A stretch of 64,000 nt of DNA from Auricularia sp. M13 (taxonomy: Eukaryota; Basidiomycota; Agaricomycetes; Auriculariales; Auriculariaceae): positions 3,224,001-3,288,000 of the forward strand of contig CM073202.1 of NCBI GenBank assembly GCA_037042915.1. The letters run 5' to 3'. Shown piece by piece: positions 4,860-62,119 of this stretch. The position numbers were made by a program, and so were the translations under genes. Within the stretch, counting starts at the first letter, position 1, and each line of letters starts with the position of its first letter. Below the pieces are notes generated by a model that was not told the DNA's origin, did no database searches, and saw only the letters and a program-made list of their open reading frames with translations.

Positions 4860-7800
4860 TCACCGTGCGAAAGACAGCCGCGCCAGCAGGTCTACGCCTC
4901 GCTGAATGTGGACGCGGCGATGCTCCAAGTCTGCCTTGCGCTGCCGTGCGTCCGGCGCACGGGATAGCCAGTGCATGGCGCGGTCTTGGTCCCCGACCTC
5001 AAGCCCGTCAACAAGTGCAGCGCCCAGATCCCGAGCGAGCGGGTTCAGGAATGCCGACACCGTCGTTTGCACCGCCGTATCCAAGAAGCACTGCGTCGCG
5101 ACTGGCCAACGATCGTCAGCTACTCCAAGTCATTCTTGGGCCGCATCAGACACACGCACCATGATAGTACGCGCGCACGGACGCCATCGTATCCAGCGCC
5201 CGCTCGGCCTCGTGCGATTTGGCCGGGAAGAGACGGAGCAGGTCGCTTTCGGTCAGGTCGCCAGGGAACCCCAGCGAACGCAGCACCTCCAGCGCCTCCG
5301 CCGCAGCGCCCCCGCCGTTCCGCAGGATGGATACGGTTGCCCCGTGCCCTTGCGCCGCGAGCGAGGCGTGCCGGAAGTGCGCGCGGAAGATGGAGAAGAA
5401 GTGCTCGTACGCGCCGCCCACGGCGACCGGGACGCGCGCGCTCTCGAGCAGCTCGTCCAGCTGGGCGGTCAGCCGGCGTCTGTGCTCGCGAATTTGTGAC
5501 AGCGCGAGCGAGCTGCGTTCGTCGATGTCAGTTCACTCTGCGAACGGGCCGTCTATGGGACAACTTACTAGATGTGCGTATCAAGGCCGCCATGCGCGTA
5601 CGCTCCGAAGTGGCGGCGCACGCGCTCGTGCAGCTCGCTCTCGACGCGCCGCACCACGGCCTGCACGAAGGCGTGTGTGGGCTGGGTCCAGGGCGCCATT
5701 GCGCCCTTCAGAAGCTGCTGCTGCGCGCTGCAGGCACATCGCCCGTGGAAGTGTACACCGCTGGCACTGGTGGCCTCGTCAGCTCAAGACTCTACTGTTA
5801 ACAACATGGGCGTACTTGGTCATCAACGTCGCCACATCGTCGACAAATAGCTCCTCGCCTGCGCGCTGGGCGAACTCGGTGGCTCCTTCGTTTGCGAGGC
5901 CAGCGGGGTCCTCCAGCCATTGCAAGTCAACCACGCTGCATGCACGTTCCCATGGGATGAACTTGGGTGCGCAGCGCTGCAGTTCCTTCCGAAGAATTTG
6001 CTGCTCGCTTCGTACTGTGGACCAGAACGCTGTGTCATCCACCTTCGTCGATACGGACGACATGAGCTGCGATACATCGCCGCTGAACTGCAGAAGGAGC
6101 TTGAAGACCTCGTTCCTCGCGTCGCCGCGGGTGGACGGCGATTCTGGTATCCGTGTGAGCTCGTCGAATATGGCGTCAAGTCGTTCGGTGGCGAGTGTTT
6201 GCAGCTCAATAATGCTAGCGGGCGTCAGCACTTTCGAAGGCCACGGGAACTGCGCCACACACCGCTGCCGCGTGATCTCGCTCAGCACTGCGTCGAGCTT
6301 GCGCACGAATGCCGGCCGGCCGACACGATGGTGCGCGTGGACGCCGAGGACCTGTTGCAGCGCACTTGACTCGCGCGGGCAGAACCAGCCGTGCATGAAG
6401 GCATGCTCCTCGCCGCGCAGCATACGTGCCCACGGCGCCACGTCCTCCATCCGCTCCGCGCGGGTGAGCACGCCGAGCGTGCGCCCTCCCGCAGGGTCGA
6501 CCTCGCGCGCGAGCCGCACGGCGGACAGGTTGTCGGGTTCGGCTTGAAACGCGTCGGCGTCAGCGTCCGCGCGGTCTGTCCTGGCACTCGCACACCCACC
6601 CTCGCACGACATGGCCAGCAGGATGAGCGTGCGCGGCGACTGCGCGCAGAGCTTCGCGAGGCGCCGCGTCTCGCGGTCGCCGCGCATGCCCGGCAGGTCG
6701 AACACGCACAGCTCCGGCGCGTCCGGCGCGTGCACGTTCACGCAGATCACGTCGCGCGAGAACGCCGCGTGCGGCCCGACGAGCTGCAGCGATGCGCTGC
6801 GCAGCGCGTGCGGCAGCTCGGCGGGGTCGCGCAGCGCCTGCCCGAACGGCTCGCCCGTCACGTTCTCAAAGGTCGCGCTCAACGGGTCGCGATGCCGGAT
6901 GAGCGTCAGCTGGCACCCCACGCGCCCGTGCTGCGTGTCAGCGTGAACATCACTGGACATCTGCGGTCCTGCTTTCAGAAGCTATACTGCCCTACGCTCA
7001 GTCACGTACTGTGTTCGATCCTCTGGCAATGCAAGCTGGAGCCGTTGTCAGTGACTATCGCTCGAAGGGATGGACGAAGAGCTCTCACGCCGATGAGGTC
7101 GCTGACGAGCGCCGTTTTGCCCGCCCCTGCCGGCCCGATGACCACAATTTCGGGAGGGTCGCGTCCCAAGGGCAGTCTGCAACTCATTCAGGAATGCTTT
7201 CGAGGGTGAACACGGGCGCGTACCCTGTGTCCACGAGCGCTGAGAGGCACTCCCCGAAACCTGTGAACAGCTTCGAAGAGGCCGACTCGACCGTGATGAG
7301 GGCCTGGCTGGGGACATGAGTTGAGGCGGGTGCAACATCCGCCGCGAATCCGAGTACGCTCGGTGTGTGGATTTGAGGTACGTCTTGCTGCGGAACTGCG
7401 AGCGGCACGGGCGGTGCATGCTGAGTGACCTTTGCTGCACCAGGGATCTCGACACGGAGCGAAGGAACTCTGCGTTTTCGTCTGCTGCTCGACTTCGCGC
7501 TTTTCACTGACGGCGTAGCCGATCGCGAAGGGTCTTCCTTTGTCGACGGCGGCAGGGGAACGTTGGTCGGGGACACCGATCGCATGACTGGCCCCGAAGC
7601 TGCCCCAGAGTCCGGACTCTGACCCGAGGATAGCATCGAAGCCGAGGAGATGCTGAGACTTTGATCGCTGCATTGCTGAGATGCCGGGCCACTAGTAGGG
7701 CCCGCCAAGCTTGGGGAGACGGAGATGACAGCAATATCGGAGCTAGCGCGCTCTGAGGGCTCTTCGGGAATTGTGGATGGTGGTGCATGCGAAGTGCGCA

Positions 7801-8655
7801 CAGGCGGCGAGGGCGAGCGACCCTGATACCGGAACGGCGAGAGCTGGAAAGACGGTGACGGGATGGAGAACTGGATGGAGGGAGACGGCCGGCACGGCAG
7901 CGGCGGAGGCGACGGGGCATCCGACTGCCCGCCAAAGTGGTCATACGCTCCTCGCGAAGAAGAGGACGTTCTGGAGCTGAGAGACCGCGAGCGAGACCCG
8001 CTGTCCTTCCGGGATGATTCTCTGCGTGACGTCGATGAAGACCTGGAGCTCTTCCTCGTTACGGACCGATCCTCACGAGCAATCGTGGACGGCGGGCTTT
8101 GTTTCTGGATTCTCAAGCCTTCGACGGGGATGGCGGTCTGAATCGGTACAGGCCTGACGTTATACATGTGTTTTGGCTCCTGCATCATATCGTCTGTGAG
8201 GTACGCCAGGTGCGTTGAGTCGGGAGAGGCCATCATCGGCGTGGCTCGGCCCTGGAACGCAATGTGAATGTCCCGCAGCAAGCAGGCCAAATGCCACGCA
8301 CAATGCTGGAGCGGGGCACCAAAAAGCTCCGGATATCCGGGGACGAGACGTCGTACATACCACCTACAGTCGTCGTGGGACTGTCGACGGGTGAGACGGA
8401 GGGCAACTGCGGAAGCGCAGTAGACGGGGTCGATAAAGGCGGAGTCGACGCTGTCAACGTCCTCCCCGGTGAGAGATTATTCCCGAGCAGAACAGTGTCG
8501 TCTGGGGATGGAGATGGAGATGGCGTTTGCCGCGGAGTCCCAGCTGATGGGGACGAAGATGGCGACGCCGCAGACGTCGATGGCGCCCACCCCCGATGGT
8601 ATGGACGCACCGCGCCGTTCCTCGTTGCTACAGACGGTTTTGTACGTCGGTTCAT
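4860..8655 (-). CDS. Dynamin-like protein A: Ser-rich N-terminus, intact P-loop, degenerate G4
   Basis: Large minus-strand gene. The N-terminal region (about 8655-7230) is disordered and Ser/Pro-rich; its first intron is uncertain (a GTATGT donor lies near 8355). It ends in CLSALVDTG and splices over 47 bp (GTACGCGC...TTGCAG) into LPLGRDPPEIVVIGPAGAGK, a good dynamin G1 loop (GPAGAGKT). The next exons give LALPEDRTQY, replacing the usual LPRDSGTCTR (G2), then DLPGMRGD (G3). G4 reads VLTRAERME where the copies at 17870 and 59263 have VLTKPDKTD, so Lys and Asp of TKxD are missing. The stalk continues to FGAYAHGGLDTH, and the GED part holds LDTMASVRAYYHG and a charged helix ending LLARLSFAR before the stop at 4860-4862. 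The reduced G4 suggests altered or weak guanine binding (inference). It lies 335 bp from gene B in the same orientation. Confidence 0.78.
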
Positions 8656-8990
8656 GGTGACGATTTGAGTCTGTGTGTTGCACGGCCCGGGAGGCGCTTC
8701 GTGCTTATAAGCCTCCGCCTCGCGGCCTCCGCGCGATGTCCCGGTGTCTATGTCTGGCCACTCCGCAACACGAGTAGTAGCTCAAGTATGAATCTCGTCA
8801 AACAGTGCAAGACTGCGTACAATCCTGAATGAAAGAAACAGAGAGCGCATCGGATACCGGCACACGGCCCGACCTTGACGTGTCCTTTTAAACGCGAGCC
8901 TCAGCTTCTCAATGAGGCACAACGTGTCCAACTTGTACAGAAACCATATCTCATCGCATGTCTCGAATTCTAGAGTAACACTTGGAGGAT

Positions 8991-11981
8991 TCAAGCTAGC
9001 GCGCAGAGCATCACTTCCTCCCTCGCCCGACGCAGAGCCTCGAGTCGATCCTCAAGCTCGACGCGTTTCGCGGCAACCTCTTTGGGTTCTTCGAGCCACG
9101 TCCTGGTTTCCTTGTGCTTGAGGGCCCTGAGAATTTCCGGTGCGAGGTTCTTGCCCAGGGAACGGATCATGTGCGACTCGATGGCGCGTTCCACGCCGTC
9201 GACGAAACGCTGGTGCGCAACTGTATATGAAAGAATAAGCCAAATCCCAAACCCGCGCGCACAGGTGAGCTTACTCTCGAAATACGCCGCGACAGTCGCC
9301 ATGACGTCCAGTGCGGCCGTGTGTCTCAGGCGGTCAATTCTCGCGAGGCCAACGGGCAGGGAGTGCTCTCTGGAGAACTGCTCGCTCCGCTGATCCTTGG
9401 CCGCAAGGAAGACTTCTTCGTTTCCCACGAACGCGCTGCCTTCCATATTCACGAGAATGCCGATGGCGTCTATGGCGGCGCGATGAGCGGAACGAAGTCT
9501 CTCTTTGACGATGTCCCTAAAATTCTGTCAGTGCGCAGTTCTCGATCACAAGACGGAGAAACAGACGATATCTTCGCTCGGAGACCCGTATAATTCCCGT
9601 ATAGTTCTTCGACGCGTGTAGATAAACGGCTAGCGAGCAACTGAACGATCGATTGGAGCCGTCGATCAGCGATATCCGCCCAAAGCTCTGTGCACTCTGC
9701 AATCAACGCCTTGGAAACCTTCTCGAGTGGCAAATGACCAGGCAACTCATTTGTCCGTAAGCTACAACGAAATGACTGTCAGAATAAGCGAAGCAAATTC
9801 AAGGGATTCACGTACAGCTGCAGGCGAGCTATAATTTGTGCCGAGGTTATACACCTCACATCCTGTATTGCCGTATTGAAGGGCTCGTTACCAGGCAGAT
9901 GGCTCTCAAGTGACACTGGATTGGTGTGACGAGGGGGAGTTGCCCGCGGGGAAGCTCTCGCGGGCTCTGGGGCGCCCATAGATGGTGCTCGGCCAAGGAA
10001 TGGCGACCGAGGCGGGAATTCATACGAGCATTGTGAATATGGTCTCTCGCTGGGTGCGATGGATGGGGCCCTACAGAACTGGATTTCGTTTAAGCTGCTC
10101 CAGCCAGGTCCTGTGGGAGCTGGCGCGCGTATCCGATCAGTATGGTACTCTGGCATTGGCGCCATGTGAGGTGTATCGGGCGACTGGACGCTGAGCTGTG
10201 GAATCGTCTTCTTGAGCTCCCTCGACAGGGCAGCATACTCGCTGCGAATGCTCTCGGCAAAGCCGATGGCCCCGTCGCGTTTGCTCGAGATGCCAAAGAT
10301 GTCCCCCGCAAACTCTGCGGCCAAGCTCATGAGTTTGGCGGTCGCGTCGCTGTACTTGGCAGGCAAGACGTTCAGCTCTGCGCGGACCTCGTCGATGCGC
10401 GACTTGAGGCTTTTCATCGTCTCGGAGATTCTGAACAAAGATATGTTAAGTAAAGCGGAAAAGACGGAGAGCATAAGACGGGCGCACTTGGTGCGTAGGA
10501 TTCCCGTGAGAATACCGTCGAGCTTCTGCGAGAGCTCGACCTTCCAGTTCCCGGATTCATCGAACGTCTCGAGGACTACCATGGCGTCAACAAGGTACAT
10601 AAATGATAGAGTGTATAAAGGTTGTCACGTACGAATTGTGCGCGCCCCAACTGGATCCGAGTTGACAACGGCGGGCGGCAAAGGCCAGCGCTCGTTGCCT
10701 AAATCAAGGCGTATACATATGAGTTACCCGATAGAGCATGAGCACTCACCAGCCCGGACGACGACGATCGCGCAGGCTTTCCCATCGAGCACGCTTTTTA
10801 CTGAATGCAGCAGTGAATCACCTGAAGTCACGTTCAGTCCGCAGCATAAACTCAAAAATGTCGTATCCACCAGCTAAATCATGAACAATGAGGTCGGCAC
10901 TTCTGTCCCGGTGGGTAACGAGCCGGATAGCGGCGGTCTGATTGGGCGCAGGGAATGCATTCTCGATGTGGTAGAGAGATTCTTGGGCGCGTAGCGTGAC
11001 CTCCCAAACAAGCGGATTCCTATATGAGTTCCAGGTAAGATCGCCGGGCTAAACATGAAGAATCGAGTCTCACGGGACAACTTCATCGACTCGAAGATCA
11101 ACCTAATAGAAAAAGATTGTTTGATGAACAATTGGATGTGCTCCAGCTTTGAAAGATCACGAACTCCCGTCAAAGCGCCTACGACCTGCGCAGAGTTGCC
11201 TCCCAGGTTGAGCACGAGGATCTCCGGGAGGGCGTCCTGTACGCGCGAGCGACTTATGGGCGTCAGCATAGATCATACAGTGATAGGGAAAAGAAAGGCT
11301 CACTCAATGGTCGGCAGAATATCGAGCGCTGCCGTCAGGCTCCTGTAATGACGGAAGCACGTCTGCTCGCGCGACATGATTGGGTTGGTAGCTCGGGCGT
11401 CTACGTCTAACATAATATAGTGTAAGCAAATGCTGATATGCCTGTGGAGGCACGAGCACTCACGGATGCGGGGCGCAGGGGCTGGCTCTGCGAGAATCTC
11501 CTCCACCTTCTCGCACTCCAGTTTCGGGGTGCCATACCCGGCCGGATGCGCTTCCTCAGCTTCGGGCATATCCTCTGGCCACCCGACTAGCAGTTCCTCG
11601 AGCACGGCCTCTGAGCAAAAGAATTAAGTACAAAGCGTTCGTCAAGCTGCATGATGACAAGATCAAGGGCTAACCTTCTCCCCTGCATATGCTCGGCGGT
11701 CTGGGCGGGGGGGACGGCGCGGCCGACCTGGGTTCATAGTGTAGGCTTTCAGCACGACTGCATGGGCGCAATGACATCGGGGAGGCAGCCTGAGATGCCG
11801 CTGATTCAGGAGCCGGCTCGACCCAAGAGTGGTCAGAACGCCTCTCCGGCGACGGTGAGCGATTGCCTGGCCGTGCGAGGGAGACCTCATCAGTGCGATG
11901 CAGACCGAGGTTGGCTTGCTGCCACTGGTCGTAGTACCGTTGAGGCTGCGACGTCGACTGGACACGGCGGTTCTTGCGCAT
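8991..11981 (-). CDS. Dynamin-like pseudo-GTPase B, P-loop lost
   Basis: Starts at the ATG at 11979-11981 (MRKNRRVQSTSQPQ) with a Ser/Pro/Arg-rich disordered region, then short exons (AEEAHPAGYGTPKLECEKVE; RHYRSLTAALDILPT). The G1 exon reads PEILVLNLGGNSAQVVGALT, aligned with PQVCVVGSQSVGKSSLIESI of copy C, so GKS is absent. The next exon has NPLVWEVTLRAQESLY and then LIVHDLAGGYD in place of YDLPG (G3). The G4 region reads MVVLETFDESGNW instead of VLTKPDKTD. The stalk includes SLKSRIDEVRAELNVLPAKY, plus a Pro/Arg-rich insert that is absent in C. The GED section has LDVMATVAAYFE and a C-terminal coiled helix (EDRLEALRRAREEVML). Frames stay open across many introns, which argues for a maintained gene. 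Nucleotide binding is unlikely. It may pair with neighbour A (inference). Several intron edges are unresolved. Confidence 0.75.
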
Positions 11982-12735
11982 GGTAAGAGGACAAGAGCTT
12001 GATTCGCAATCGCCGACAGCTGCATGACTTTATACCCGCCGCCTCGAGGCAACCACGCATCGCCGCTTTTGTAACAGTGACAATTCTTTGACAAGCGCGC
12101 GTCAGTGTACCGTCGCCGTCACAATGTGTGTATGACTGACACATACCACTCTCCTCGCCTCTCCCACACCAGCAGGACAGTCCGACTTGCAGAGGGATTG
12201 GAGAATATCCGGACTATGTGGTCAGCAGCCGAAGAACTTGGAAATAAGACCAGGCGAGTCGTTGAACTTTGCTGACGGTGCGGTGGTACTATAGGGATTG
12301 AAATGCTGGCGTTCTGTTTACAGCCCCGCTGGCTAGAGCGACTGGCGAAGGATGAAAACACGCGTAAGGCGCATGCACCTTCGCGACCGATTGGTGCGTT
12401 GGGAGACTGCTGTTCTGCGTTCCCTTACGTCGAGCTGAAAATCTGACAGTGTACTGAAGTTGCGCATCCGCCCGTGTCGAGCAGTTACGCCAAATCATAA
12501 GGCCTAGCCGTATATGAGGAGGACCAGTATGCGCGCACAGAAGTCATGCGGCCTCGCTGTCAAAGCGGTTGCTGAGGAAGTCAAAGTTGAAGAGACTCAG
12601 AGCAAAGAGTCGGCAATCGGCCCGGCAGCCCGGGACACCGACAGCCGGAGCGGGAGCATTTTCCCCATCCAATGAAATGCCCACTCTCGCAGTCCCTGCC
12701 CTCCCTCACCCTGAACCTCAAACCCCTAACCTCCA
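11982..12735. other. Divergent intergenic region between B and the cupin gene
   Basis: Probably holds the promoters of dynamin-like gene B (minus) and the cupin gene (plus). Nothing else coding can be supported. Confidence 0.4.
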
Positions 12736-14781: not shown

Positions 14782-16058
14782 CGAGAGCGTCAGTCTGGGC
14801 GTCGCGGTGGATATCTAGGCGGGCGGGTAGTGGTGGGAGGAAGCCAAGCGAGCGCAGCGGGGCGCGAGACCTCCCTATCTAGCATCTGGTGTGGTGGACC
14901 GTGGTTGTTCGGCGGAGCGGCGCGTGCCGGAGGTCGGCTTCTTCGTTTTGGGGCGGGGTCCAAGCAGTGGCGGCGCAATCGCCGGCGTCACATGGCCCGG
15001 CGACTTAGACAAGACACCGAGACCGGGGCCGGGTGGCTGAACGCCGGCGCTCGCTGTAGACGCCGGTGCCGCCGGTATCCCTGAGCGGGGCGCTTACTTG
15101 TGTCAGGTCGACATAGAACTCGGTATACTGCAAACGCTGGGGGATACGGGGTAAGACACGGCGTGCATGCCCAGAAAGGAAACTCCGTCGCAGGTCCCTG
15201 CTCCGCCGTCGATGGTCAGGAACAGTATGGCGGGCGAAAGGGGCGAATCAGGAAGTGAGACAGTGTCCTGATGCGTGCATTGCGGGCTGGCGGCGGCGCA
15301 GTGCCATACGGGCAGCGCACAATTACGCAGCGCAATTTGTCTGTTGTCTGTTGCCTGCGCTTCTGTTTGCTGCATTGTGCCAGATTGCGACGAGCTCGAG
15401 GATGTCCGGAAGAATGGCCGCGGAACAATGAACGTGCCGCCGGGCCGGTTCTTCCATGTCCGCTGCGGACCTGGACAGACGGATGTCCGACGACGCGGAC
15501 GTCCGGCGAAGAGAGGTTCTATTTGTTCATCATGGAAACGGGGTACTCAGTAGTGGGACATAAGTACAGCATCCCCGGCACCGTGTTTGTCCTGGTCCTG
15601 GAACTCCTCTCTCAGCACGACTGTCAAAGGTATCGGTAGAGTAAACTATTGCTGATAGAACAGTGTGCAGGCGAAATTCACCAGATACCACGATGAGAAG
15701 AATTTACAGCGTCTCACGTGCGAACAACATGACGTTGGCAGTGCTAGCGGCGCAGGATCATCACTGCTGTTACGGAGATGAACGGACGTCCGAGAGCAGC
15801 AGGTTGATGATCTTATCAAAGATGAGCAACAATGTATGCAACGCCGCCGTGAGACTACCATATGAGCTTGTTTCCACAGCCCGGTCTACACGATGAAGCG
15901 AGTTGCTTGATTGGACTCTGCGAGTCTGCCTGGCACCATATGCATATGACTCCGTCCTTCTCTCTGTTGCTTCTCTTCACGGTCAGTGAGAGGATTATTC
16001 CACGCCAGTTGACACGCGAACAAACAGAACCAAACACTATGCCCCTTACTCCCGGACC
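14782..16058. other. Gene-poor intergenic region
   Basis: Probably contains the promoters of the divergent genes at 13607-14781 and 16059-17426. A minus-strand stretch at about 15775-15860 encodes YGSLTAALHTLLLIFDK, a little like RHYRSLTAALDILPT of dynamin-like gene B, but it is too short to call a gene fragment. Confidence 0.35.
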
Positions 16059-17426
16059 ATGACCGGACCTTCACCTACGTGCTTGTTGTGTAGGGAGCCC
16101 GCACTATTGCACGTGCCTCCCGAACTGCTCGCGCTATGCTTCGGGTTGCTCACGTTGGGCGACCTGCTGTCCGTGTCGCGTGCGAGCCGGCACTGGCGCG
16201 CTATTGCGCTGGGCACGCCGGCGCTCTGGGCGACGTTCAAAGTTGGAACCGGTAGGAGGCAGACTAGAAGGCTGGCCGAGATGCTGCGTTGCTCGCAGGC
16301 CGCGCCGCTGTCCGTGCAGTTGACGCTCACGCCCGCCGAGGAAGCTCTGCTCTGCCCGCATTTCGCCCGCCTGCGCGAGCTCGTCTGCGACGACGTGCTC
16401 GGACCAATCCAGACCCCGATTGTCAGAAAGCTCGAGCTTGGCCGGAAGTACGATCGAAGCCCCTTTTTGCTCAGCGCCGAGTTCGTAGGGGCGGCCGCAG
16501 GCAGCTTGGAAACCATGCGGCTCAACGGATTCGTGCTGGCGCCGTCGTGTCCCCTATTTCTCAGTTTGCGCGCGTTGAGAGCGATATTCACGCAACCTCA
16601 GACGACGTGTCTCCCGGATCTGCTGGCGCTCTGTCCTGCTTTGGAATCGCTGGCGGTGTGCTGCGTCTCGGACACTGAGCTCGGCGTCGACCCTCGCGCG
16701 CTGTTCGTTCCCCTCCCGGCCTCGTTGCGCGACGTCTCCATTTTTGGAGTGTCCTCTTCCGTCTCTTATATCGAGTGCGCGACGCTGCAACCGTGGACAG
16801 GACACGCATTCCGCAGCTTCAAATTGCCGGGCAGCCAGACGTCTCGGGCATCCTAGGATCCCTACAATTGTTCGCCGAATCCTGCAGCCCGCAGCCATGG
16901 AGCCTATCGCTTCTGCACTGCTGGCAGTCTCACAACTAGCACATCGCTTGCTCTCTGCGCACGCTGCCTCCTGACGGCGTGGCCGAGACGCTGACAGAGA
17001 TCTTCGCGCACGGAGAAAGGATCTGGAACCAGGCGCTGCCGTCGTAGGTCTGATGCAAGCGCAGGCGCATTTTGGCCAGCTGACGACGTGCACGCTCTCG
17101 TCTCTATCCGTCGAACAGGGTGCGCGCCTGCCTGCGCTCAAGACGCTCAATCTGACGTACAACCCAACATCAACGGCGACCCTCCCTCCACCATCCCACA
17201 CGCCGCTGGGATCTCTGCGCCCGGGCTGCGCAGCTTCGTGTTCGCGTACAGCTCGGGTTTCACGTTCCGCTGGGGCGCGCTCGAATGGTTCTACGACGCG
17301 CTTCCGCGCGAGTTGCGGAACTGGATTCAGTACGACGTACCGCGCCTGGAACGGCTTATTCTTGAGTGTTCTGTGCTGGAGACTGATTTGCCGAGGCATG
17401 TCATGAACGATTCGCGGGTTTATTAG
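16059..17426 (+). CDS. F-box protein with leucine-rich tail
   Basis: Four exons, 16059-16750, 16801-16926, 16998-17156 and 17234-17426, all phase-compatible and giving 389 residues. The introns are 50, 71 and 77 bp. The N-terminus has an F-box-like motif (LLHVPPELLALCFGLLTLGD then LSVSRASRHWRAIALGTPALW), the usual Skp1-binding element of SCF ubiquitin ligases. The rest has irregular leucine-rich stretches (LRELVCDDVL, TRIPQLQIAGQPDVSGILGS, LPALKTLNLT), as in the large lineage-specific F-box families of Agaricomycetes. Read without splicing it looks frameshifted; the introns restore one frame. The ATG at 16059 precedes the F-box directly, while the ATG at 16039 is out of frame. The substrate is unknown. 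Confidence 0.8.
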
Positions 17427-17869: not shown

Positions 17870-20746
17870 ATGCTGACTGCCGAGTCTGCTCAATCCGATT
17901 CAGCCAGTCCCTCAAGCGCAGCATCAGACGCGTCGTTCGATTCGTCGGTGCATGTTCCCGACGTCCAAGACAAGCATGCGCCTCCGACGGCGACGAAGCA
18001 AGATTTCGGTACCACATCGTATGCCCGTGACCGCCGCGCTCTCCTGCAGTTGTTGGCCCGCCTCCATGGTACAGGGTACGCTCTTGTCCGAAGGAACACA
18101 TTGCGCAGTCTCTGAACCATCACAGCATTCAGAACCTACTCACGCTCCCCCAAGTCTGCGTCGTCGGCTCGCAGTCGGTGGGAAAGAGCTCTCTCATCGA
18201 GTCAATAGGTGGAGTGCGTGACTTCTAAACGACAATGCATTTCATCTCTCCATCCTAACAACATTGTAGATTAAGCTTCCCCGCGACAGCGGAACATGTA
18301 CCCGGTGAGCTCAGCGCATCGCAATACGCAGATTCTCTGCTCTACTGCCAGTCTACTGAGACCGAACCTTAAAGCTGCCCGATGGAGTGCCGCCTCGAGT
18401 ATGCGGAATCCTCGACGTGGACGTGCCGCGTCTCGCTGCGCATCCGCGAGGGGGAGGCCTTCCAGGAGATCCCGTTTGGCGCCGACCTGACCGATCCCGA
18501 GCACGTGGAGAACCGCCTCCGCCAGGCCCAGCGCGCGCTCCTGCGTCCGGGCCTGCAGCCGGACGCATTCCTCGACGACTCGGACCTACAGATCCGCGCG
18601 GGCGCTGCGGCGATGTCGTTCACGGACAACTGCGTGTGCGTCCACATCCGCGGGCCTGAGGTTACGGACCTTCATTTCTACGACTTGCCTGGTATGTCCC
18701 TGCATTCTCCGTCCGCTTGAGATGTCGTGGGGTCTCACTGGACTGTTCTTTCAGGCATTATTGTCAATGTGCAGGAGGGTCAGGACCCCTCGGACATCGA
18801 ACTCGTCCGCTCGATGGTCAAGCGCTACATCGAAAGGCCAGGCTGCATTCGTCTACTTGTTGTCTCCTGCGAGAGTGAGCTGTTTCAACCTTTCTTTTTC
18901 ATGCTATTCACTAAATATGTCTTTCAGCCGACTTTGAGAACCAAGTCGCTGGACGGCTCGTGCGCGAGGTCGACGCAAATGGCATCGACACCGTCGGTAC
19001 GACTCACCTTCTCACTGCTTAGATATCGACGTCGATTCTCACCTATCATATCGCCTGACAGGTGTGCTGACGAAGCCAGACAAGACGGACGCAGAGTCGT
19101 CGCACCGGTGGCAAAAGATCAACGAGTCGTACAAGCTTCAAGCGGGCTGGTTCGTCGTGAAGCTTCCTGACAGCAAGGAGCTGCGCGAGGGCATCGCGCC
19201 GGAGGTCGCGCGCCAGCGGGCGGACGCGTTCTTTAAGACCAACGAGAACTGGATCGAATACGCGCATCGCCACCCGGCGCGTGTCGGCACTGAGAACCTC
19301 ACGGACTACCTGGCGCAGCGTCTCTCGGACCAGCTTCGCGATAGGTGCGTCCGAATAGCAAGCTGTTGCTCAATGGATTACTGGCCCTTACTCTTGCTTC
19401 TGCTCGCAGTCTCCCCCGCATCCGCGACGCCGTGCAGCGCGCGCTGGTCGAGACGATGGCGCGCCTCGTGGAACTCCCGCCCCCCATCACGCACGACCCA
19501 ACCGCAGAGGTCTTCGCGCGCATCAACAGCTTCGCGCAGGCCGTCTCCACGCATGTCCGCGGCACCGCGCCGCTCAAGGGCAGCCAGCGCGGCCTGGTGC
19601 AGCAGCTGTACGCCGCGTACCGCGAGTTCAAGCGCGCCGTCAGGGCGACTGCGCCGAAGTTCGATGCGCGCAAGGACGCCGCGGCGGAGCGCGGCTTGGA
19701 CCTTGTCGACCTGGATTCGGACGACGATGAGGAGGTTGTTGAGCGCCCGAAAGATGAGCTCAAGATAGCGGAGGTGATGCGGATGGCGATGGAGTGCGTC
19801 TTCTGAATTTCATCGTGTTGGACATTCCACTGATCGTCCGATGCAGGGCGCGCACTCGGGAGCTGCCAGGCAACTACCCCTTTTCCGTCAAGGCGCACTA
19901 CATCTTCAGTTTTTTGCAAGAGTGGGAGGTGCCGACGTTCAGCTGTTTCGAGCGCGCGTTCAAGATCTTCTCCGACGAGCTGTCAGATCTGATCGAAGAT
20001 CATTTCGCTCAGTACGCGCATGGGGGACTGCTCTCCCACGTCCAGTGAGTGCAACGCCTCTTCATTATATTTACTCGTCCTGATTAAACGGCTATCTATG
20101 TAGGACTGTGATCGGCGCGCAACTTCAGACGATCGCCGAGACGGCGCGCGCGCGTCTTCGCGTCGACATGCTCAAGGAAACCGAAGGAATACTTACGGAG
20201 AACGACCACTACCTCGCAGCGTACAAGGACAAGTTCCTATCGCTCTATAAACTCAACCGAGTGCGCCTTCCGCCCGGCGAGCGCGATGAGGACGCCTACA
20301 TCGAACCCGGGACGGACCACATCCACGACGCCATCAACTCGCTGCACCGTGCCGGCTACAGGGGCGTGGCAACGTCCGACCTCGGAAAGCTTCTCCCCAG
20401 TGACGGCCTGGAGCCCGCGTTCGACATCATGGCCGAAGTCCGCGCGTATTTCCAAGGTACCCGCCCCGAAGAACGCCTACCGACGGGAGCTGACACGTTT
20501 GCAGTCGCGTACAAGCGCTACATCGACTCGATCCCGCAGTGCATCGAGCAGACGCTCATCCGCGCTTTTGACGCGCAGCTCTCCGCGGCGCTCGTCGGCG
20601 ACCTCGGGCTGCTGAAGAAGGGCGCGCGCCAGAAGTGCGAGAGCTGGGTGCGCGAGCCGCCGGCGCTTGCGGAAGAGCGGCGCGAGCTGCTCGCGCGGAA
20701 GAAGACGCTCGAGCACGCGCAGGCTTTGCTGTTCCGCTTTGGCTGA
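17870..20746 (+). CDS. Dynamin-like GTPase C, intact G motifs
   Basis: Eleven exons give 764 residues with consistent phases: 17870-18075, 18126-18213, 18270-18304, 18375-18691, 18755-18874, 18928-18996, 19062-19344, 19410-19793, 19847-20044, 20104-20456, 20505-20746. A short Ser-rich N-terminus leads into RRALLQLLARLHGTG and the G domain: G1 VVGSQSVGKSSLIESIGG, G2 LPRDSGTCTRCPMECRLE, G3 FYDLPG, G4 GVLTKPDKTD. A stalk follows, with an acidic loop (LVDLDSDDDEEVVE) and LPGNYPFSVKAHYIFSFLQ, then a GED-like end (AFDIMAEVRAYFQ, VAYKRYIDSIPQCIEQTLIR, final HAQALLFRFG). No pleckstrin-homology or transmembrane segment is evident, as in Mx-like or soluble fungal dynamin-related proteins. It should bind and hydrolyse GTP and self-assemble. 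Its target membrane or partner is unknown. Confidence 0.93.
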
Positions 20747-41697: not shown

Positions 41698-42466
41698 ATG
41701 AACTCGCGCATCTTTTCCCTCGTCCTGTTCTTCCTCAGTTTCGGGCTCTTTGCCGTCGCGTCGCCCCTCGACGCCGACCTCGAGGCACGCGACATGGAGA
41801 AGCGTGCGTCCGCCGTTGTGGATGTCATCGCCAAACTCTCCAGCGAGGTCAACAGCGCTCTCAACACTTTCAGCTTCGGTGAGCGCAGCGAGTCTTGCCA
41901 AGTCTACAACAGCAACTCACTTCCTCGCAGCCGCCAATGCCAATGCTGGCCCAAACATCAACGCGATCACCAGCGCTTTCGCCACTGCAACTAATAGCCT
42001 CGAGCTCATGGACTCCGTCTTCCTCTCCGCTGCCGATAAGAACGCCGTCGCCAAGAACGTCGCGGACGCGATCAACAACGCCGCCGACCACATCAGCAAG
42101 TCACCCCAGACTGTCTCCGCCATCACGGCCAGCGTGCTCCTCGACGCTCAAATCAAGGTGGGCGTTCAAGCGCCAACTATTCTCAGTCGCGTTACTCACG
42201 ATATTTCTCAGCTCTTCTTGAACATCTTCGGCATCGTCGTCGTCGGCGTCGTGGGCATTATCGCCAAGCTGTGAGCATTACGGTGCACTGAGAGTCTCAA
42301 CCTTCTTTCTAACTCACTGTTAGGATTATCAACGTCAAGCTGTTCCTCACCGTGCGTGCATTCGATGTGAATCGTACCTCAGCCACTGATGCCCGCGCTG
42401 CAGATCCACCTTGTCCTTGTCGCTAACATCTTCATTGACATCCTCGGCATCGTCATCATTCTCTAA
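41698..42466 (+). CDS. Small secreted protein, SSP copy 2 (185 aa)
   Basis: Five phase-consistent exons: 41698-41878, 41931-42157, 42212-42270, 42324-42351, 42404-42466. A signal peptide (MNSRIFSLVLFFLSFGLFAV) is followed by a Lys-Arg site (DMEKRAS), a helix with AVVDVIAKLSSEVNSALNTF, an Ala/Asn-rich middle (NINAITSAFATATNSLELMD, KNVADAINNAADHISKSPQT) and a hydrophobic end built from three small exons (LFLNIFGIVVVGVVGIIAKL, IINVKLFLT, IHLVLVANIFIDILGIVIIL). The leader just before the ATG is shared with copies 3 and 4. The hydrophobic end could mediate self-assembly or membrane/wall association. The SC15-like assignment is inference. Confidence 0.9.
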
Positions 42467-45901: not shown

Positions 45902-47469
45902 ATGCTCGTCGCGTTGCAGCTCGTCGTCGCCGCCACGCTCGCCGTTTGCGCCGCGAGATGGCAGCCGCCAGAAGAGCTCTTCGACCCGCTCGTCGCACAG
46001 AAGGTGCTCGATATGGCGCAGACGGTGCGCTCTCCGCCAGCGTACCCAGCCATCACGAGCACGAGCGGTGTCTGGCAGTGGTCGGGCCCGGACAACTGGA
46101 TAACGGGCTTCTTCCCGTCGACGTTGTACCAGATGGCGAAGCGGGAGTGCCTGTGCCCGGGCTCGACGATCGTCAATGGCACCGTGCCCGACTGGCTCGC
46201 ACTGGGGCGCACGTGGAGTGCGGCGATCCCGCCGCTGCATTGGCACAATGGCCAGGGGCACGACGTCGGCTTTCTCAGCTGGCCGTTCGTCGAGGAACTG
46301 AGAATGTACGTGCGGAATGCGGCACAGACTTTGAGTACTGACGCCTCGCTACCAGTCACCCTGACAACGCGACCGCACGCGAGAACATCATCGAGTTTGC
46401 TCTGGAACTCTCGTCGCGGTACGCGAAGGAGGTCGGCTGCACGCGCTCGTGGGACTGGTCCTCGTCGACATCCCCGACGCCGGAGACGGACTTCCTCGTG
46501 ATCATGGACAACCTCATGAACCTCGAGACGCTGATTCAGGCGTACGAACTCACGGGGAACCGCACCTTCTACGACGTTGCCATCAACCACGCCGACACGA
46601 CGCTCAAGAACCATTTCCGCAGCGACTGGGGCTCCTGGCACGTCGTCAACTATGACCACCTCACCGGCGCGGTCAAAGAGAAGTATACACAGCAGGGATA
46701 CAGCGACGACTCGACCTGGTCAAGAGGGAAAGCTGGGGACTACATTCCTATGCCAGACGCACGTGTTCGACTGATTCACTTGATTGACGTTTTCCTGAGA
46801 CATTCAACAGTCTATCAGTACACGAAGGATCCCCGCTACTTAGACGCGGCGCGCAATATTGCTTCCTACTTCCTTAGTCACACCCCGGAGACCTACACGC
46901 CGTGGTGCGTGACCGAATCCTTCCCTGGGAGTTGCGCCATTGACCATGATACAATTACAGGGACTTTGACGCTCCGATGGACCCCCCGCTCGCCGACTCC
47001 TCCGCGGCAATGATAGCCGCCGCGGGTCTGCAAATTCTCGCGCAGGTCGAGACATCCGTTGGAGACGTTGTCGCTGCTCGGGGATGGACGGGTGGGGCGC
47101 GCAGGGTATGTGTAGCATTGCTCTTCCAGCAGCCTCGTGCTAAACGCAACGCAGCTTATCTCTCAGACGGCGGGATACGCCTGGAATGCATCCTGGCAGA
47201 GCCTGCTCTCGAATGGGACGCGTGACAACCACGGCGTGCCGCATTCGAACAGCACCGGTTTGCCGTACGGCGACTACTTCTGGATCAAGGTGAGATTCTA
47301 AATCTTTCAGCAGCCTACGAAACTGCTTATTCATCTTCCGAAGAACGGCAACTACCTACTCGTCTCGCAGGAGGTCGAGTGCCCGAATGGGGACTCGGCG
47401 CCGCCCACGGGTTGCGCTCTTGACCTTACCGTGCCATTCTTTGCAACTGACAGCGCTGAAATGCGGTGA
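45902..47469 (+). CDS. Secreted GH88-like unsaturated glucuronyl hydrolase, altered motif
   Basis: Starts at ATG 45902 with a signal peptide (MLVALQLVVAATLAVCAARW). Exon 1 has GPDNWITGFFPSTLYQMAKR and GHDVGFLSWPF, where the Asp matches one catalytic Asp of unsaturated glucuronyl hydrolases. A GTACGT intron joins to IHPDNATARENIIEFALELS and DFLVIMDNLMNLETLIQAY, which carries the second expected Asp. WGSWHVVNYDHLTG and DDSTWSRG follow. The family then expects QAWGLYGF; here the frame reads KAGDYIPMPDA, while WGLHSYA is visible one frame over. Later exons give QYTKDPRYLDAARNIASYFL, WDFDAPMDPPLADSSAAM and GLPYGDYFWIK. The last exon (VECPNGDSAPPTGC) is unusual and its start is uncertain. The enzyme would remove unsaturated uronic acids from lyase-generated oligosaccharides. 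The damaged motif makes activity doubtful. Confidence 0.8.
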
Positions 47470-51021: not shown

Positions 51022-51029
51022 TATAAAAG
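51022..51029 (+). promoter_or_regulatory. TATA box of SSP copy 4
   Basis: TATAAAAG, 80 bp upstream of the ATG at 51102. It is followed by GACA, as for copy 3. Confidence 0.6.
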
Positions 51030-51101
51030 ACAGACGAATTACGACGACCTTGTCTCCAGAGCCAGCAGCTAGCCAGCCCTACCACTACAGCAACAGCAGC
51101 A

Positions 51102-51866
51102 ATGAACTCGCGTATCTTCTCCCTTGTACTATTCTTCCTCAGCTTCGGGCTCTTCGCCGTCGCGTCGCCCCTCGATGCCGACCTCGAGGCGCGCGATATG
51201 GAGAAGCGCGCGTCCGCCGTTGTCGATGTCATCGCCAAGCTCTCGAATGACGTCAACAGCGCTCTCAACACCTTTAGCTTTGGTGAGCGTCGAACAGTTG
51301 CCCCTTCTATGATAGTACTCACGGCGTCTCAGCCGCCAATGCCAATGCTGGCCCGAACATCAATGCGATCACCAACGCGTTCGCCACCGCAACCAACAGC
51401 CTTGAGCGCATGGGCCCCGTATTCCTCTCCGCTGCCGACAAGAATACGGTCGCGAAGAACGTCGCGGACGCGATTAATAACGCCGCGGATCACATCAGCA
51501 AGTCGCCGCAGACGGTCTCCGCTATCACCGCGAGCGTGCTGCTCGACGCGCAGATCAAGGTGCGTAATCTCAACGCCCACTTCAATGTTTATATCTCTCA
51601 TCTTGTTCTTCCAGCTCTTCCTCAATGTGTTCGGCATCATTGTCGTCGGCGTCGTCGGTATCATTGCCAAGCTGTGAGTTTGCATTCGGGCTGACCGCCT
51701 CGTTTTTTTCTGACCAATTTCAGGATCATCAACATCAAGCTGTTCCTCTCAGTGCGTTCATCCCTTATGACTTGTCCTCCGGCCGCTGACTCGTGCGCTG
51801 TAGATCCACCTTGTCCTCGTCGCGAACATCTTCATTGACCTACTCGGGATCATAATCATCCTCTAG
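51102..51866 (+). CDS. Small secreted protein, SSP copy 4
   Basis: Starts at ATG 51102 and ends at TAG 51864-51866 after the exon encoding IHLVLVANIFIDLLGIIIIL. The signal peptide, DMEKRAS site and first exon match copies 2 and 3 almost exactly (AVVDVIAKLSNDVNSALNTF). The second exon contains NINAITNAFATATNSLERMG, PVFLSAADKNTVAKNVADAI and SKSPQTVSAITASVLLDAQI. The third reads LFLNVFGIIVVGVVGIIAKL and the fourth IINIKLFLS. Introns differ in sequence between copies while exons are conserved, as expected if the protein is under constraint. The high copy identity and shared leader point to recent duplication, and the strong TATA box fits high expression. Confidence 0.9.
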
Positions 51867-52250
51867 ATTATATGCAGATGTAGCGCTTCTCACTGGGTAA
51901 AAATTAGTCGTCATTGGGATTCTGTGTGTCGCATATTGGGGCCTCTTCTGTCTGCACAAGGATGTCGTCCTTTCCCTATTGCGGAAATAGATGAAGTGTC
52001 ATTGTCCTCAACGAGATGTCGTTTCTGACAGTGAAAATAACGCGAACTCGGAAAAAGAAGAAATCTAGGTATACGCCGCTCGCTTGAGATGGAAGGCCAA
52101 GCGGATCAGTCGCCACGGAGCTTTTCAGGCCGGATCAACTCGTGTTTGCTGCCGAGTCGTGAGTCCTTGACCACGTACTTATTCACCGTTATCTGTTCCG
52201 TGCTCATGCTCCTACACACGTCACGGTGAACCATCTCGCTCTCTCGTAAT
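51867..52250. other. Intergenic region, no gene seen
   Basis: Lies between SSP copy 4 and the next plus-strand gene. It probably carries the terminator of one and the promoter of the other. Confidence 0.4.
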
Positions 52251-53665
52251 ATGGCGCTCTTAAACAACGATATCCTGTTCCTGGTGACGGATTTCTCCAA
52301 TACCAGTGGTCTACGAGATCTTTGCCTCGTTTCGCGCGCACTCTACGGTCACGCAGTCCGCCGATTGTACAATTCAGTGCGTATAACGCATCCTTCAGCT
52401 CTTTATACGTTCATAGAGTCGGTCGAGCGCCACCCTTGGCTCGCCGAATCTGTTAAATCATTTTCGGACGTCGTCAAAGTTCGCGTAGGCACGAGCGCTA
52501 CCTTCTTATGGAGCATCTCTCGAAGCCTTCTCGCTCTTCCTAATCTGGAGTCTATATCCCTGTTTGTTGCCGGGATATACGACACTGACATTGAACCGAT
52601 GCGGGCGATTTATTCGGCTGTTGCCAGTCGAGCTCGTCTTCGAAACCTGCGTCTTCGGGCCATCAACATGGATGTGCTACCCGAGCTACGAAATCTGGAG
52701 AACATAAGCCACTTGGACGTGTCCTTCAGCCATAATGTGCCCATTGGTGTAACGCTGGCCTGGCTTTTCAAAATGGCCCAATGCACACAGTCGCTCGCTG
52801 TCGACGGAGTGCTTCTGGAACGCGGGCTACAAAGCTTAGATAGCTCTAGTCCGCCCGTCTTCGCGCAGGTCCGTAGGCTTTCTGCGAATTCTCAATCAGT
52901 ACATGGCATCTCTCCAACCTCCCGCCTTATATCAGCCTTCCCGTCACTCCAATCCCTCTCGCTCGGCGCCCGCATAACCAAAGACATTCGCCAACTTCCG
53001 GCATGCCTGGATGTGCTCTTGCCCTGCCTCCGTCATCTGGAACTGAAGACTTGGAACTATGGCCTGTTATCGGCGCAGCACCCGATTTCGAGTTTGCGGC
53101 TGAGCGTCGCCCGCGGCGATCTCATTCTCAGTCCCGAAGTTTATCTGGGGCTAGTTTCCTCACCGAATGTCCGCGCTCTTGAGATTGATTGGGGGTCTTC
53201 TGCATCTTTTATCGTTGCTGCCTCGGCCTTGGCAGCCTTTCCTGGGCTCACCTTCCTCGACGTTACTGTCCGCACATACAATACAAGAGACGTAAGAGAA
53301 ATTACATCTCCCATCATCTTTGCTGACTGCCCCCAAAGATTAATTCATGGTTGCGGGATAGAACAAGGTTACCTCAGGCCACCCCTCCCAACTTGGCCGC
53401 CCTGACCATTCGGTGGATGTCGGCTACGGCGATCGCGCAGACTTTCGAGTCAAACGACCTTGCCGCTCTGAGCTCTGTTTCCCCTGCGCTTAAGCTTTTG
53501 AGGATCGCCAAGCGCATCGAGCGCGGCGATTGCGCTTTTCAGGCCTGGAAGATCTCATCCGTTCCACGCGAGATTGACTGGGAAGACGCATGTGAGATTG
53601 CTAGCGAACATTTATTCGCAGCCGGCACGCCTCGTACACCCTGGGATGACCTTACGGCGGTTTAG
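52251..53665 (+). CDS. F-box-like / leucine-rich protein (442 aa)
   Basis: Two exons, 52251-53291 and 53378-53665, joined in phase 0 over an 86-bp intron (GTAAGA...ACCTCAG); without splicing the frame would stop at 53405. The N-terminus MALLNNDILFLVTDF followed by LRDLCLVSRALYGHAVRRLY matches the shortened F-box-like start common in basidiomycete proteins (L..DI...I, then L..LCLVSR....A..RLY). The body has leucine-rich strands (LPNLESISLFVAGIYD, LENISHLDVSF, FPSLQSLSLGARI, LPCLRHLELKTWNY, FPGLTFLDVTVRTY) arranged like a divergent LRR solenoid. It is likely an SCF substrate adaptor, if the F-box is functional. It is unrelated in detail to the F-box gene at 16059. Confidence 0.78.
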
Positions 53666-59262: not shown

Positions 59263-62119
59263 CTAACCGAAGCGGAAGAGCAACGCCTGCGCACGTTCGA
59301 GCGTCTTCTTCCGCGCAAGCAGCTCGCGCCGTTCCTCCGCGAGAGCAGGAGGCTCGCGCACCCAGGTCTCGCACTTCTGGCGGGCGCCGGCCTTGAAGAG
59401 CCCGAGGTCTTTGACAAGCGAGGCGGACAGTTGTTGGTCAAACGCGCGGATGAGTGTCTGCTCAATGCACTGGGGGATCGAATCGATGTAACGCTTGTAG
59501 GCCACTGCTGACGCGTGAGCGTTGACGAACTATGAGGTACGGAAATTGTTACCCTGAAAGTATGCGCGGACCTCGGCCATGATATCAAACGCAGGCTCCA
59601 GTCCATTGGTCGTGGGCAGGAGCTTGCCTAGGTCTGTCCTTGTTACACCCCTATAGCCGGCATCGGCTAATGCGTTGAGTGCATTCTGAACATAATCTAC
59701 TCTGCACATCGGGGCTACGTGAGGAGGCCATACGCGCGGAATTTCGAGAGCCTCTGGTTCTGGGGGAGGCACTGGCGGTGAGCGCGTACGGGTGAGCTTA
59801 TAGAGAGCCAGAAATTTCGCCTTGTACGCTGCGAGATAGTGGTCGTTCTGCGTTAGGATGCCTTCCGTTTCCTTGAGCATATCGGCACGAAGACGCTCGC
59901 GAGCGTGCTCGGCAACTGCTTGAAGTTGTGCGCTGATTGCTGTGCTGGAAGACCATGAGAATCATCGTGAGACATAATGACGTACTCACTGCACATGTGA
60001 CGTGAGCCCTCCGTGTGCATATTGCGCGAAATGATCGTCGACGAGAAATGAGAGCTCGTCACAGTAGATTTTGAAGGCGCGCTCGAAGCAGGCAAATGTT
60101 GGTTCCTCCCATGTTTGAAGGAAGCTGAAAATGTAGTGGGCCTTTACCGAGAATGGGTAATTGCCGGGGAGTTCACGAGTACGTGCTCTGTCGTTAGTGA
60201 GAAGCAATTGAACGATGAGAAAATACGATGGAGGGATTTGGCAGACGCACTCGATTGCCATCCTCATCACTTCCTCGACCTTCAACTTGTTGTCTGGAGC
60301 GTATACCTCTTCCTCCTCGTCGTCAGAGTCAAGATCCACAAGCTCCACGCCTTGCGTCGCGGCATAGTCGCGGCGGGCATCGAATCTGGGCGCAGTCGCT
60401 CTGATGTCACGTTTGAACTCCGCGTACGCAGCATAGAGTTGTTGGACAAGTCCGCGTCTCTCGGGCTCAAAGGGGGACATGCCGCTCACGTGCATTGAGA
60501 CGCGATGCGCGAAGCTAGTGATGCGAGAAAAAATCTCCGCTGTTGGGTCGTTCGTGATCTGGGGAGGCAGCGCCACGAGACGTGACATGGTTTCGACGAG
60601 AGCGCGCTGGACGGCATCACGAATACGGGGAAGACTGGGGTGGACGTTAGCTTACGCTGTATCACAGCATGATTAAGTGGGGCACACCTGTCTCTCAACT
60701 GGTCCGAAAGACGCTGCGCAAGATATTCCGTGAGGTTCTCCGTGCCGATGCGTGCCGGGTTGCGCTGCGCATAGCCGCGCCAATGCTCATTGCTTTTGAA
60801 GAAAGCATCCGCACGCTGACGGGCAACCTCCGGCGTGATGCCCTCGCGAAGCTCGCGACTGTCGGGCAGCTTGACGACGAACCAACCGGTCTGAAGTTTA
60901 TACTGTTCGTTAATCTTCTGCCACCTGTCAGATGAGTCCGCGTCGGTCTTATCGGGTTTCGTGAGCACGCCTGCAACATGTGAGTTGAGAAGAACATAGC
61001 GTATAAAATAGAGAAACCCATACCGACGGTGTCAACTCCACTCGCGTCGACCTCGCGGACGAGTCGTCCGGCGACCTGGTTCTCGAAATCGGCTGCAGGC
61101 AATGGATCAGTTCGTAATCTGCGCCAGGAACATGGTAAAACTCACTCTCGCAGGAAACCACGAGAAGACGAATGCAGCCCGGTTTCTCGATGTAACGCTT
61201 AACCATGGAGCGGACAAGGTCGATGTCAGAGGGGTCTTGACCCTCCTGCACGTTGACGATAATGCCTTCGCGAACGATATGAAACAGCTGACATTACTAA
61301 ACGAAGGCAAAACGTACCGGGCAAATCGTAGAAGTGCAGATCCGTAACTTCTCTACCACGAATGTGGATGCACACACAGTTGTCCGTGAACGACAACGTG
61401 TTGCCTGCGCGGATCTGCAAGTCGGAGTCGTCCAGGAACGCTTCCGGCTGGAGGCTGGGTCTCAGAAGCGCGCGCTGAGCCTGGCGGAGGCGCTTCTCCA
61501 CGTGCTCGGGGTCAGTTATGTCGCTTCCAAATGGGACCTCCTGATAGGATTCGCCCTCTCGGATGCGCAGCGACACGCGGCACGTCCAGTTCGATGACGC
61601 GGAAAACTCGAGGCGGCATTCCATTGGGCAGCTGCAATAGAGTCAGCCTTAAGGGAGGGCTACAACGAAGCACTCACCGGGTGCACGTCCCACTGTCGCG
61701 AGGCAGCTTAATCTGATGCGCACCGTCAGCAAGGAGCAAAGGAGACCATATAACACATAGTGACATACGCCGCCAATGGACTCTATCAGGGAGCTCTTCC
61801 CCACCGACTGAGAGCCTACCACGCAGACTTGTGGGAGCGTCAGGAGGTTCTGAATTCTGTGAAGGATATGAGACATGAAGAGAGCACGTCGGGTATGAGC
61901 GTACCCTGTACCATGCAGCCGAGCGAGCAGCTGCAGAAGAGCGCGACGCTCTCGGGCGTAGGTCGATGTGCCAAGATCAGGCTTTGTAGTAGCATGAGCG
62001 GGATTGGGAGGCAGTGGTCCGGGACTCGGCGGTCGCGACGACGAATTGAACGAGTCCTCCGATGCCACGCTCGACGCACTTCCTGGAGTGGAGTTCGCAG
62101 ACTGGTATCCGCCGCTCAT
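59263..62119 (-). CDS. Dynamin-like GTPase D, intact G motifs
   Basis: Minus strand from ATG 62117-62119 (MSGGYQSANSTPGSASSVAS; the longer frame begins with GTG) to the stop at 59263-59265. Exon order and intron positions mirror copy C: RRALLQLLARLHGTG then the P-loop exon (VVGSQSVGKSSLIESIGG), CRLEFSASSNWTCRVSLRIR, G3 LHFYDLPG, G4 MLTKPDKTDADSSDRWQK, stalk VELVDLDSDDEEEEVYA, ELPGNYPFSVKAHYIFSFLQ, and a GED end with AFDIMAEVRAYFQG, VAYKRYIDSIPQCIEQTLI type sequence and final RAQALLFRFG. The loop before GED is longer and Pro-rich (RTRSPPVPPPEPEALEIPR). It should be a functional GTPase that self-assembles, probably a recent paralogue of C. Target unknown. Confidence 0.92.

Follow-up and report, generated by a model that had tools for sequence, protein, structure and literature searches.

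A candidate pseudo-GTPase with a probable stalk and a retained GED among Mx-like dynamin relatives of Auricularia sp. M13

The window, by which we mean the whole 64,000-nucleotide stretch analysed here (C10:3224001-3288000 of a 52-Mb genome in 14 contigs), has a G+C content of 57% and short GT-AG introns, and it holds four relatives of the dynamin family, to which the antiviral Mx proteins belong; they are called A to D in Table 1. Genes C and D encode intact Mx-like GTPases that are 79% identical (605/762), with a dN/dS of 0.10 (NG86) at a dS of 1.4, which is close to saturation; they lie on opposite strands with about 39 kb between them. Gene A has an intact P-loop (GPAGAGKT) and the G3 motif DLPG, and at 6420-6520 on the minus strand its G4 motif reads TRAE in place of TKxD with the P-loop kept; its S/P-rich N-terminus is about 440 aa long. 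Gene B, the subject of the original prediction, occupies exactly the interval that had been assigned to it, from a start ATG at 11981 to a stop codon ending at 8991. Genome searches with A (G domain onward), B and C brought up no additional member of the group among the best candidates scored, the other matches being dynamin-type GTPase exons on C10 (at about 1.54 Mb), C4 and C8, and a whole-genome GED scan gave five places, B, C, D and two outside the window (C8 and C4), with gene A absent from its matches. Beyond this genome, the stalk/GED of B gave six pattern matches in viral contigs and part of C gave 26 in bacterial and archaeal contigs, none of which was confirmed, an outcome to be expected of a fungal gene. 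The sole split in the tree of the four genes separates A and B from C and D, and B's sister paralogue is not derivable from four genes; over the G region, B is more often identical to A (41/163) than to C (29/163).

Table 1. Gene B, its parts and the neighbouring dynamin relatives, in window coordinates.
Feature	Position	Strand	Remarks
Gene A	4860..8655	minus	adjoins B on the same strand; first exons uncertain
Gene B, Mx-like dynamin with eroded G domain	8991..11981	minus	13 exons, 776 aa
Gene B exons 1-5	11675-11981, 11464-11610, 11304-11406, 11165-11252, 11074-11102	minus	
Gene B exons 6-9	10871-11019, 10750-10821, 10633-10698, 10488-10575	minus	
Gene B exons 10-13	9816-10430, 9567-9761, 9275-9516, 8991-9220	minus	
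B, G1 site	11180..11203	minus	GGNSAQVV (exon 11165-11252) vs G-x4-GK[S/T] in A, C and D
B, switch I (G2) exon	11074..11102	minus	VDLRVDE-VVP vs IKLPRDSGTCTR in C and D
B, G3 site DLAG	10871..10880, continues 10821	minus	last G split by an intron
B, exon following G3	10750..10821	minus	16 aa shorter than in C and D
B, G4 site	10559..10570	minus	ETFD; TKPD in C and D, TRAE in A
B, stalk N exon	9816..10430	minus	S/P-rich insert; 77 codons longer than in C; z 2.7 vs C+D
B, stalk middle exon	9567..9761	minus	RTNELPG (C and D RTRELPG, Mx1 RGRELPG); z 9.9
B, stalk C exon	9275..9516	minus	z 5.6; Mx1 match; 37 aa shorter than in C
B, GED exon	8991..9220	minus	Pfam GED 8.4e-12; z 10.9
Gene C	17870..20746	plus	intact Mx-like GTPase, 764 aa; GSQSVGKS, DLPG, TKPD
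Gene D	59263..62119	minus	intact Mx-like GTPase, 779 aa

By its architecture, gene B is a real protein-coding gene. As had been predicted, its frame stays open across many introns: twelve of them, all GT-AG and 49-64 nt long, interrupt 776 codons that contain no internal stop, which points to a frame long kept; the encoded protein begins with an S/P-rich stretch of about 150 aa. Scored with splice-site weight matrices built from 28 introns of genes A, C and D only, the modelled donors rank higher than the remaining GT sites in the locus (Mann-Whitney p=7e-7) and the modelled acceptors higher than the remaining AG sites (p=0.004). The donors of two introns, GTGGAT and GTCTGT, are poor and rank 61 and 53 among 148 GT sites. 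In 12 of the 13 exons the codon signal is best in the modelled frame, G+C stands at 66% in third positions vs 43% in the introns, and the codon signal is weak overall (0.07 bits per codon). A decoder whose splice and codon tables were derived from A, C and D only, blind to homology and given the start and end of gene B, reproduced 11 of the 12 introns exactly and added five at a penalty of -7; at -4 it reproduced ten and added nine. The single miss at -7 was a donor at 10900, 30 nt upstream of the modelled 10870, and the extra introns, mostly in or adjoining the S/P-rich stretch of the stalk N exon, were not accepted. Among the control genes the decoder recovered 9/10 introns of C, 6/10 of D and, for A, 5-6 of 8, which marks it as a rough tool. 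The ambiguous donor and the added introns are what could be said for a wrong gene model, one whose true splice form restores an intact G domain, and we consider this extremely improbable: the exon-intron structure of B agrees with that of C and D, and no GK[S/T] codon run occurs in any minus-strand frame of 8990-11990 (counted over codons that splicing leaves unsplit), so that an alternative splice form restoring GxxxxGKS is practically excluded. Intron 12 (9221-9274, minus strand, 54 nt) is itself open and in frame, so that a transcript retaining it would code for 18 more aa with no stop.

Ten consecutive intron phases, running from the P-loop exon to the last exon (2,0,2,1,1,1,2,2,2,1), are identical in B, C and D, the P-loop exon measures 88 nt in all four genes, and the ten differences in exon length between B and C (0, -6, -168, -48, -3, -195, +231, -3, -111 and -12 nt) are without exception multiples of three; gene A is without three of the ten common introns. 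The splice sites of B were chosen with C in view, which makes the match in phase and length partly circular, a worry that the blind decoder run limits. Overall identity between B and C is about 25% (118/481 aligned residues). Taken singly, none of the six G-region exons of B is significantly similar to C and D (p 0.085-0.22), the matching C exon ranking second or third of ten; all four stalk/GED exons have their C counterpart in first place of ten. Since the six G-region exons are insignificant and the G region scores at shuffle level against a profile of its paralogues (see below), the case for its descent from a G domain is made by the intron phases, the 88-nt exon and collinearity. The descent of the whole gene from the dynamin family rests on the intron phases together with the stalk and GED, and by a catalytic definition gene B, as its motifs read, is not a dynamin GTPase. 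Its assignment to the dynamin family is upheld, with the amendment that its nearest solved relatives appear to be Mx proteins, not classical dynamins: six of the seven PDB entries listed for B at E up to 1 are Mx1 or Mx2, including the first five. Full-length C has Mx2 as its best match (5e-38, through the G domain), with Mx1 or Mx2 in the first nine of 43 listed entries, and the G domain of A matches Mx2 weakly (4e-14), then Vps1 (7e-11). Pfam reports no PH domain in B, in C or in the part of A that was scanned.

At G1, spliced B reads NLGGNSAQ where C and D have GSQSVGKS and A has GPAGAGKT. The GGNSAQVV of the original prediction falls within the counterpart of the P-loop exon of A, C and D, and a sub-threshold HMMER alignment (-1.2 bits) sets it opposite the P-loop of Mx1. 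An MAFFT L-INS-i alignment offered PAGYGTPKL, in exon 2 of B, as the counterpart of A's PAGAGKTAL; this was rejected because the exon lies upstream of the conserved introns and lacks GK, and GGNSAQVV is taken as G1 because exon structure, the other alignments and HMMER agree. Switch I of B has lost its threonines and is two residues shorter than in C and D. At G3 the predicted DLAGG is there, but the motif is not erased: the second G is intronic, spliced G3 reads DLAG-D, and DxxG is formally kept if the modelled donor is used, this being the weak GTGGAT, for which the decoder's donor at 10900 would remove DLAG. The ETFD claimed for G4 was likewise located. Compared with C, 56 aa are missing from the exon ending at G3 and 65 aa from the G4 exon; the stretch missing after G3 we take, naming it from dynamin structures, to be the switch II or trans-stabilising loop, and the stretch missing from the G4 exon is presumably G5. 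Across the five exons past the P-loop exon, B is shorter than C by 6, 168, 48, 3 and 195 nt, and the six G-region exons together encode 164 aa vs 304 in C. Pfam Dynamin_N gave no match to B up to E=1, nor up to E=10, with HMMER filters that drop most weak matches. Against a profile of A, C and D the G region of B scores -1.4 bits, a value reached by 132 of 1000 shuffles, and against a profile of C and D the left-out gene A still reaches 44.7 bits while B is not reported. The loss predicted at the P-loop is therefore real but not limited to it, the whole G domain being shortened and unrecognisable. By its sequence gene B is a pseudo-GTPase, that is, a GTPase homologue without the essential nucleotide-binding motifs (no GK[S/T] at G1), and it is predicted to be unable to bind or hydrolyse GTP. 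DLAG and the G4 aspartate, formally present, might instead serve a nucleotide or another ligand bound in a non-canonical pocket that the shortened G region forms, and for GMS IRG proteins a K-to-M change in G1 has been recorded (PMC1297648). Such a pocket is very unlikely in B, which is without the lysine and serine of the P-loop, the threonine of switch I and the segments that follow G3 and G4, and whose G region matches no profile. Gene A may represent a first step of the same erosion.

Of the fold landmarks named in the original prediction, SLTAAL and the GED are present in B (model translation, Pfam), and so, probably, is the stalk. The GED scores 45.6 bits against a Pfam cut-off of 21.4, and Dynamin_M reaches 23.3 bits (4.2e-5, positions 162-284), below its cut-off of 28.5. 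On C the same Dynamin_M profile scores 63.3 bits, its best stretch being profile positions 8-152 (residues 299-445), and a genome scan with it at E up to 0.1 listed exons of C and D and none of B. The GED scan of the genome gave B 36.9 bits, more than the 30.2 and 30.9 bits of C and D, and the stalk/GED part of B scores 78.6 bits against the profile of A, C and D and finds Mx1 in the PDB at 1.5e-5. The corresponding query from C, at E up to 1, found no dynamin, its one match being TAFII28 (E=0.62), and that from A found nothing at E up to 1; when full-length C is aligned to Mx2, the stalk contributes 3.3 bits and the GED 0.1 bits. Since Dynamin_M favours C whereas the GED profile and Mx1 favour B, the advantage of B lies in the GED and the C-terminal portion of the stalk. 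Over stalk and GED together B is 24-27% identical to its paralogues, and 25% to C (55/218). AlphaFold, run on the stalk C/GED half of B, returned a mean pLDDT of 46 and was uninformative.

The two halves of B also differ in rate. Over the six G-region exons the branch of B is 5.3 or 3.6 times as long as that of A, depending on the aligner (bootstrap 95% intervals 2.1-393 and 1.9-11.9, 200 bootstraps each), and over the last three exons the ratio is 0.80 or 0.85 (0.47-1.31 and 0.51-1.35); B is accelerated across the motor, with no such effect in the last three exons. Judged by these rates, the stalk and GED of B appear to retain constraint. This bears on the reading of B as a decaying gene, in which the G domain has been lost, selection has ended and stops have yet to hit. 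The fast-evolving G region, the poor donors GTGGAT and GTCTGT and the weak codon signal would fit such decay, but in neutral simulations starting from C (substitutions only) the frame was stop-free at 90% identity in none of 60 runs, and by 25% identity every one of the 60 had collected at least 15 stops, with a mean of 25. The absence of any stop from B at about 25% identity implies that B would have been under selection for most of its divergence. The survival of the frame, exon-length differences from C that are multiples of three in ten of ten cases, and a stalk and GED evolving no faster than those of A all support selection on B, and we consider decay improbable, though gene B may have lost its function very recently.

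Dynamins assemble through their stalks, and G-domain dimerisation between neighbouring rungs stimulates hydrolysis. Gene B is most likely a true pseudo-GTPase of the Mx-like cluster that would act as a non-catalytic assembly subunit. More specifically, with a probability of roughly 45%, we read it as a functional cluster member and passive subunit that tunes, caps or spaces the assemblies of A, C or D. B would enter rings or filaments of these P-loop-intact proteins through its stalk, and within them it would interrupt the rung-to-rung contacts of G domains by which cooperative hydrolysis is driven, so that the assemblies would be tuned or capped. For hetero-assembly we count the presence of paralogues with intact P-loops inside the same window; against it we count the 25% identity of B and C in stalk and GED, the preference of Dynamin_M for C, the insert in the stalk N exon and the shorter stalk C exon. 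B could equally assemble alone, and a tentative, somewhat unlikely alternative makes it a GTPase-independent scaffold that self-assembles through stalk and GED without a catalytic partner, with binding sites in its disordered S/P-rich N-terminus and insert. The retained stalk and GED, the N-terminal stretch of some 150 aa, the longer stalk N exon and an identity to the paralogues of just 24-27% would suit this scaffold, but a partner is easily supplied by a cluster with three P-loop-intact paralogues, one of which, A, adjoins B on the same strand. More speculatively, the halves of a dynamin may have been divided among the paralogues, B being an obligate non-catalytic scaffold of a hetero-oligomeric, possibly antiviral, Mx machine; we think this rather unlikely. 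On that account A, C and D would keep a motor with an intact P-loop, the stalk and GED of A and C having drifted beyond detection against PDB dynamins, and B would have dropped the motor while keeping the most Mx-like C-terminal half of the stalk and a GED with a higher score than that of C or D.

Among the members studied in depth, dynamins and Mx proteins are regarded as self-assembling GTPases with one kind of subunit. CENP-M and the pseudoGTPase domains of p190RhoGAP, compared here with B, are small-GTPase folds without a dynamin stalk. These two resemble B as GTPase folds read as pseudoGTPases: CENP-M functions in kinetochore assembly, and of the three p190RhoGAP domains two bind no nucleotide (PMC10211241). 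Closer in some respects are the IRGQ quasi-GTPases, homologues of dynamin-like immune GTPases with a radically changed nucleotide site that are proposed to be regulators, one of which in zebrafish stands in tandem with an intact gene (Genome Biology 2005, PMC1297648). They share with B the altered nucleotide site and, in the zebrafish case, the intact relative nearby, but they belong to the vertebrate IRG family and are without the stalk-GED architecture of Mx proteins and dynamins, and IRGQ and B are probably of independent origin. Plant DRP4A, an Mx-like lineage described in PMC11789081 as having repeatedly arisen from full-length relatives with part of the protein lost, differs from B in that opposite halves were lost. 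In fungi, the same source describes the Mx-like proteins MxF1 and MxF2 in Basidiomycota, with variable copy number, and its authors examined the GTPase domains for hallmarks of catalysis (Langley et al. 2025, PMC11789081). A possible likeness to MxF lies in the nearest PDB matches of A (weakly), C and the stalk/GED of B, all of which are Mx proteins, and in the lack of a PH domain from the Pfam results. Among the papers listed by our searches of open-licence literature there was no fungal or Mx-family dynamin pseudo-GTPase, and surveys that demand an intact GTPase domain would overlook genes like B. As a constrained, motor-less paralogue beside intact ones, B would be a natural experiment on what a stalk does without GTP hydrolysis, and it may serve as a test case for the regulation of fungal Mx-like proteins by inactive partners, in the way suggested for the quasi-IRG proteins of vertebrates (PMC1297648).

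Several other genes lie in the window. Near the dynamin relatives, on the plus strand, are an F-box-like gene (15990-16856, 6.3e-8) and an LRR-type gene (52230-53405, 4.8e-6), which along with the short introns and the G+C content suggest a basidiomycete genome. Also on the plus strand, at 46342-47013, is an exon of a probable glycosyl hydrolase whose Pfam Glyco_hydro_88 match (2.9e-5) is below the cut-off. Three small proteins, probably secreted, have parts in common (2100-2742 on the minus strand; 41702-42274 and 51027-51677 on the plus strand); two of the three were scanned with Pfam and gave no match. The signal peptides of the 2100-2742 and 51027-51677 proteins are of the type MNSR(L/I)FS(F/L)VLFFLS(L/F)GLF, and the proteins at 41702-42274 and 51027-51677 share the C-terminal end QLFLN(I/V)FGI(V/I)VVGVVGIIAKL, to which the end of the 2100-2742 protein, QLFLNIFAVVVVGII, is similar as judged by eye.
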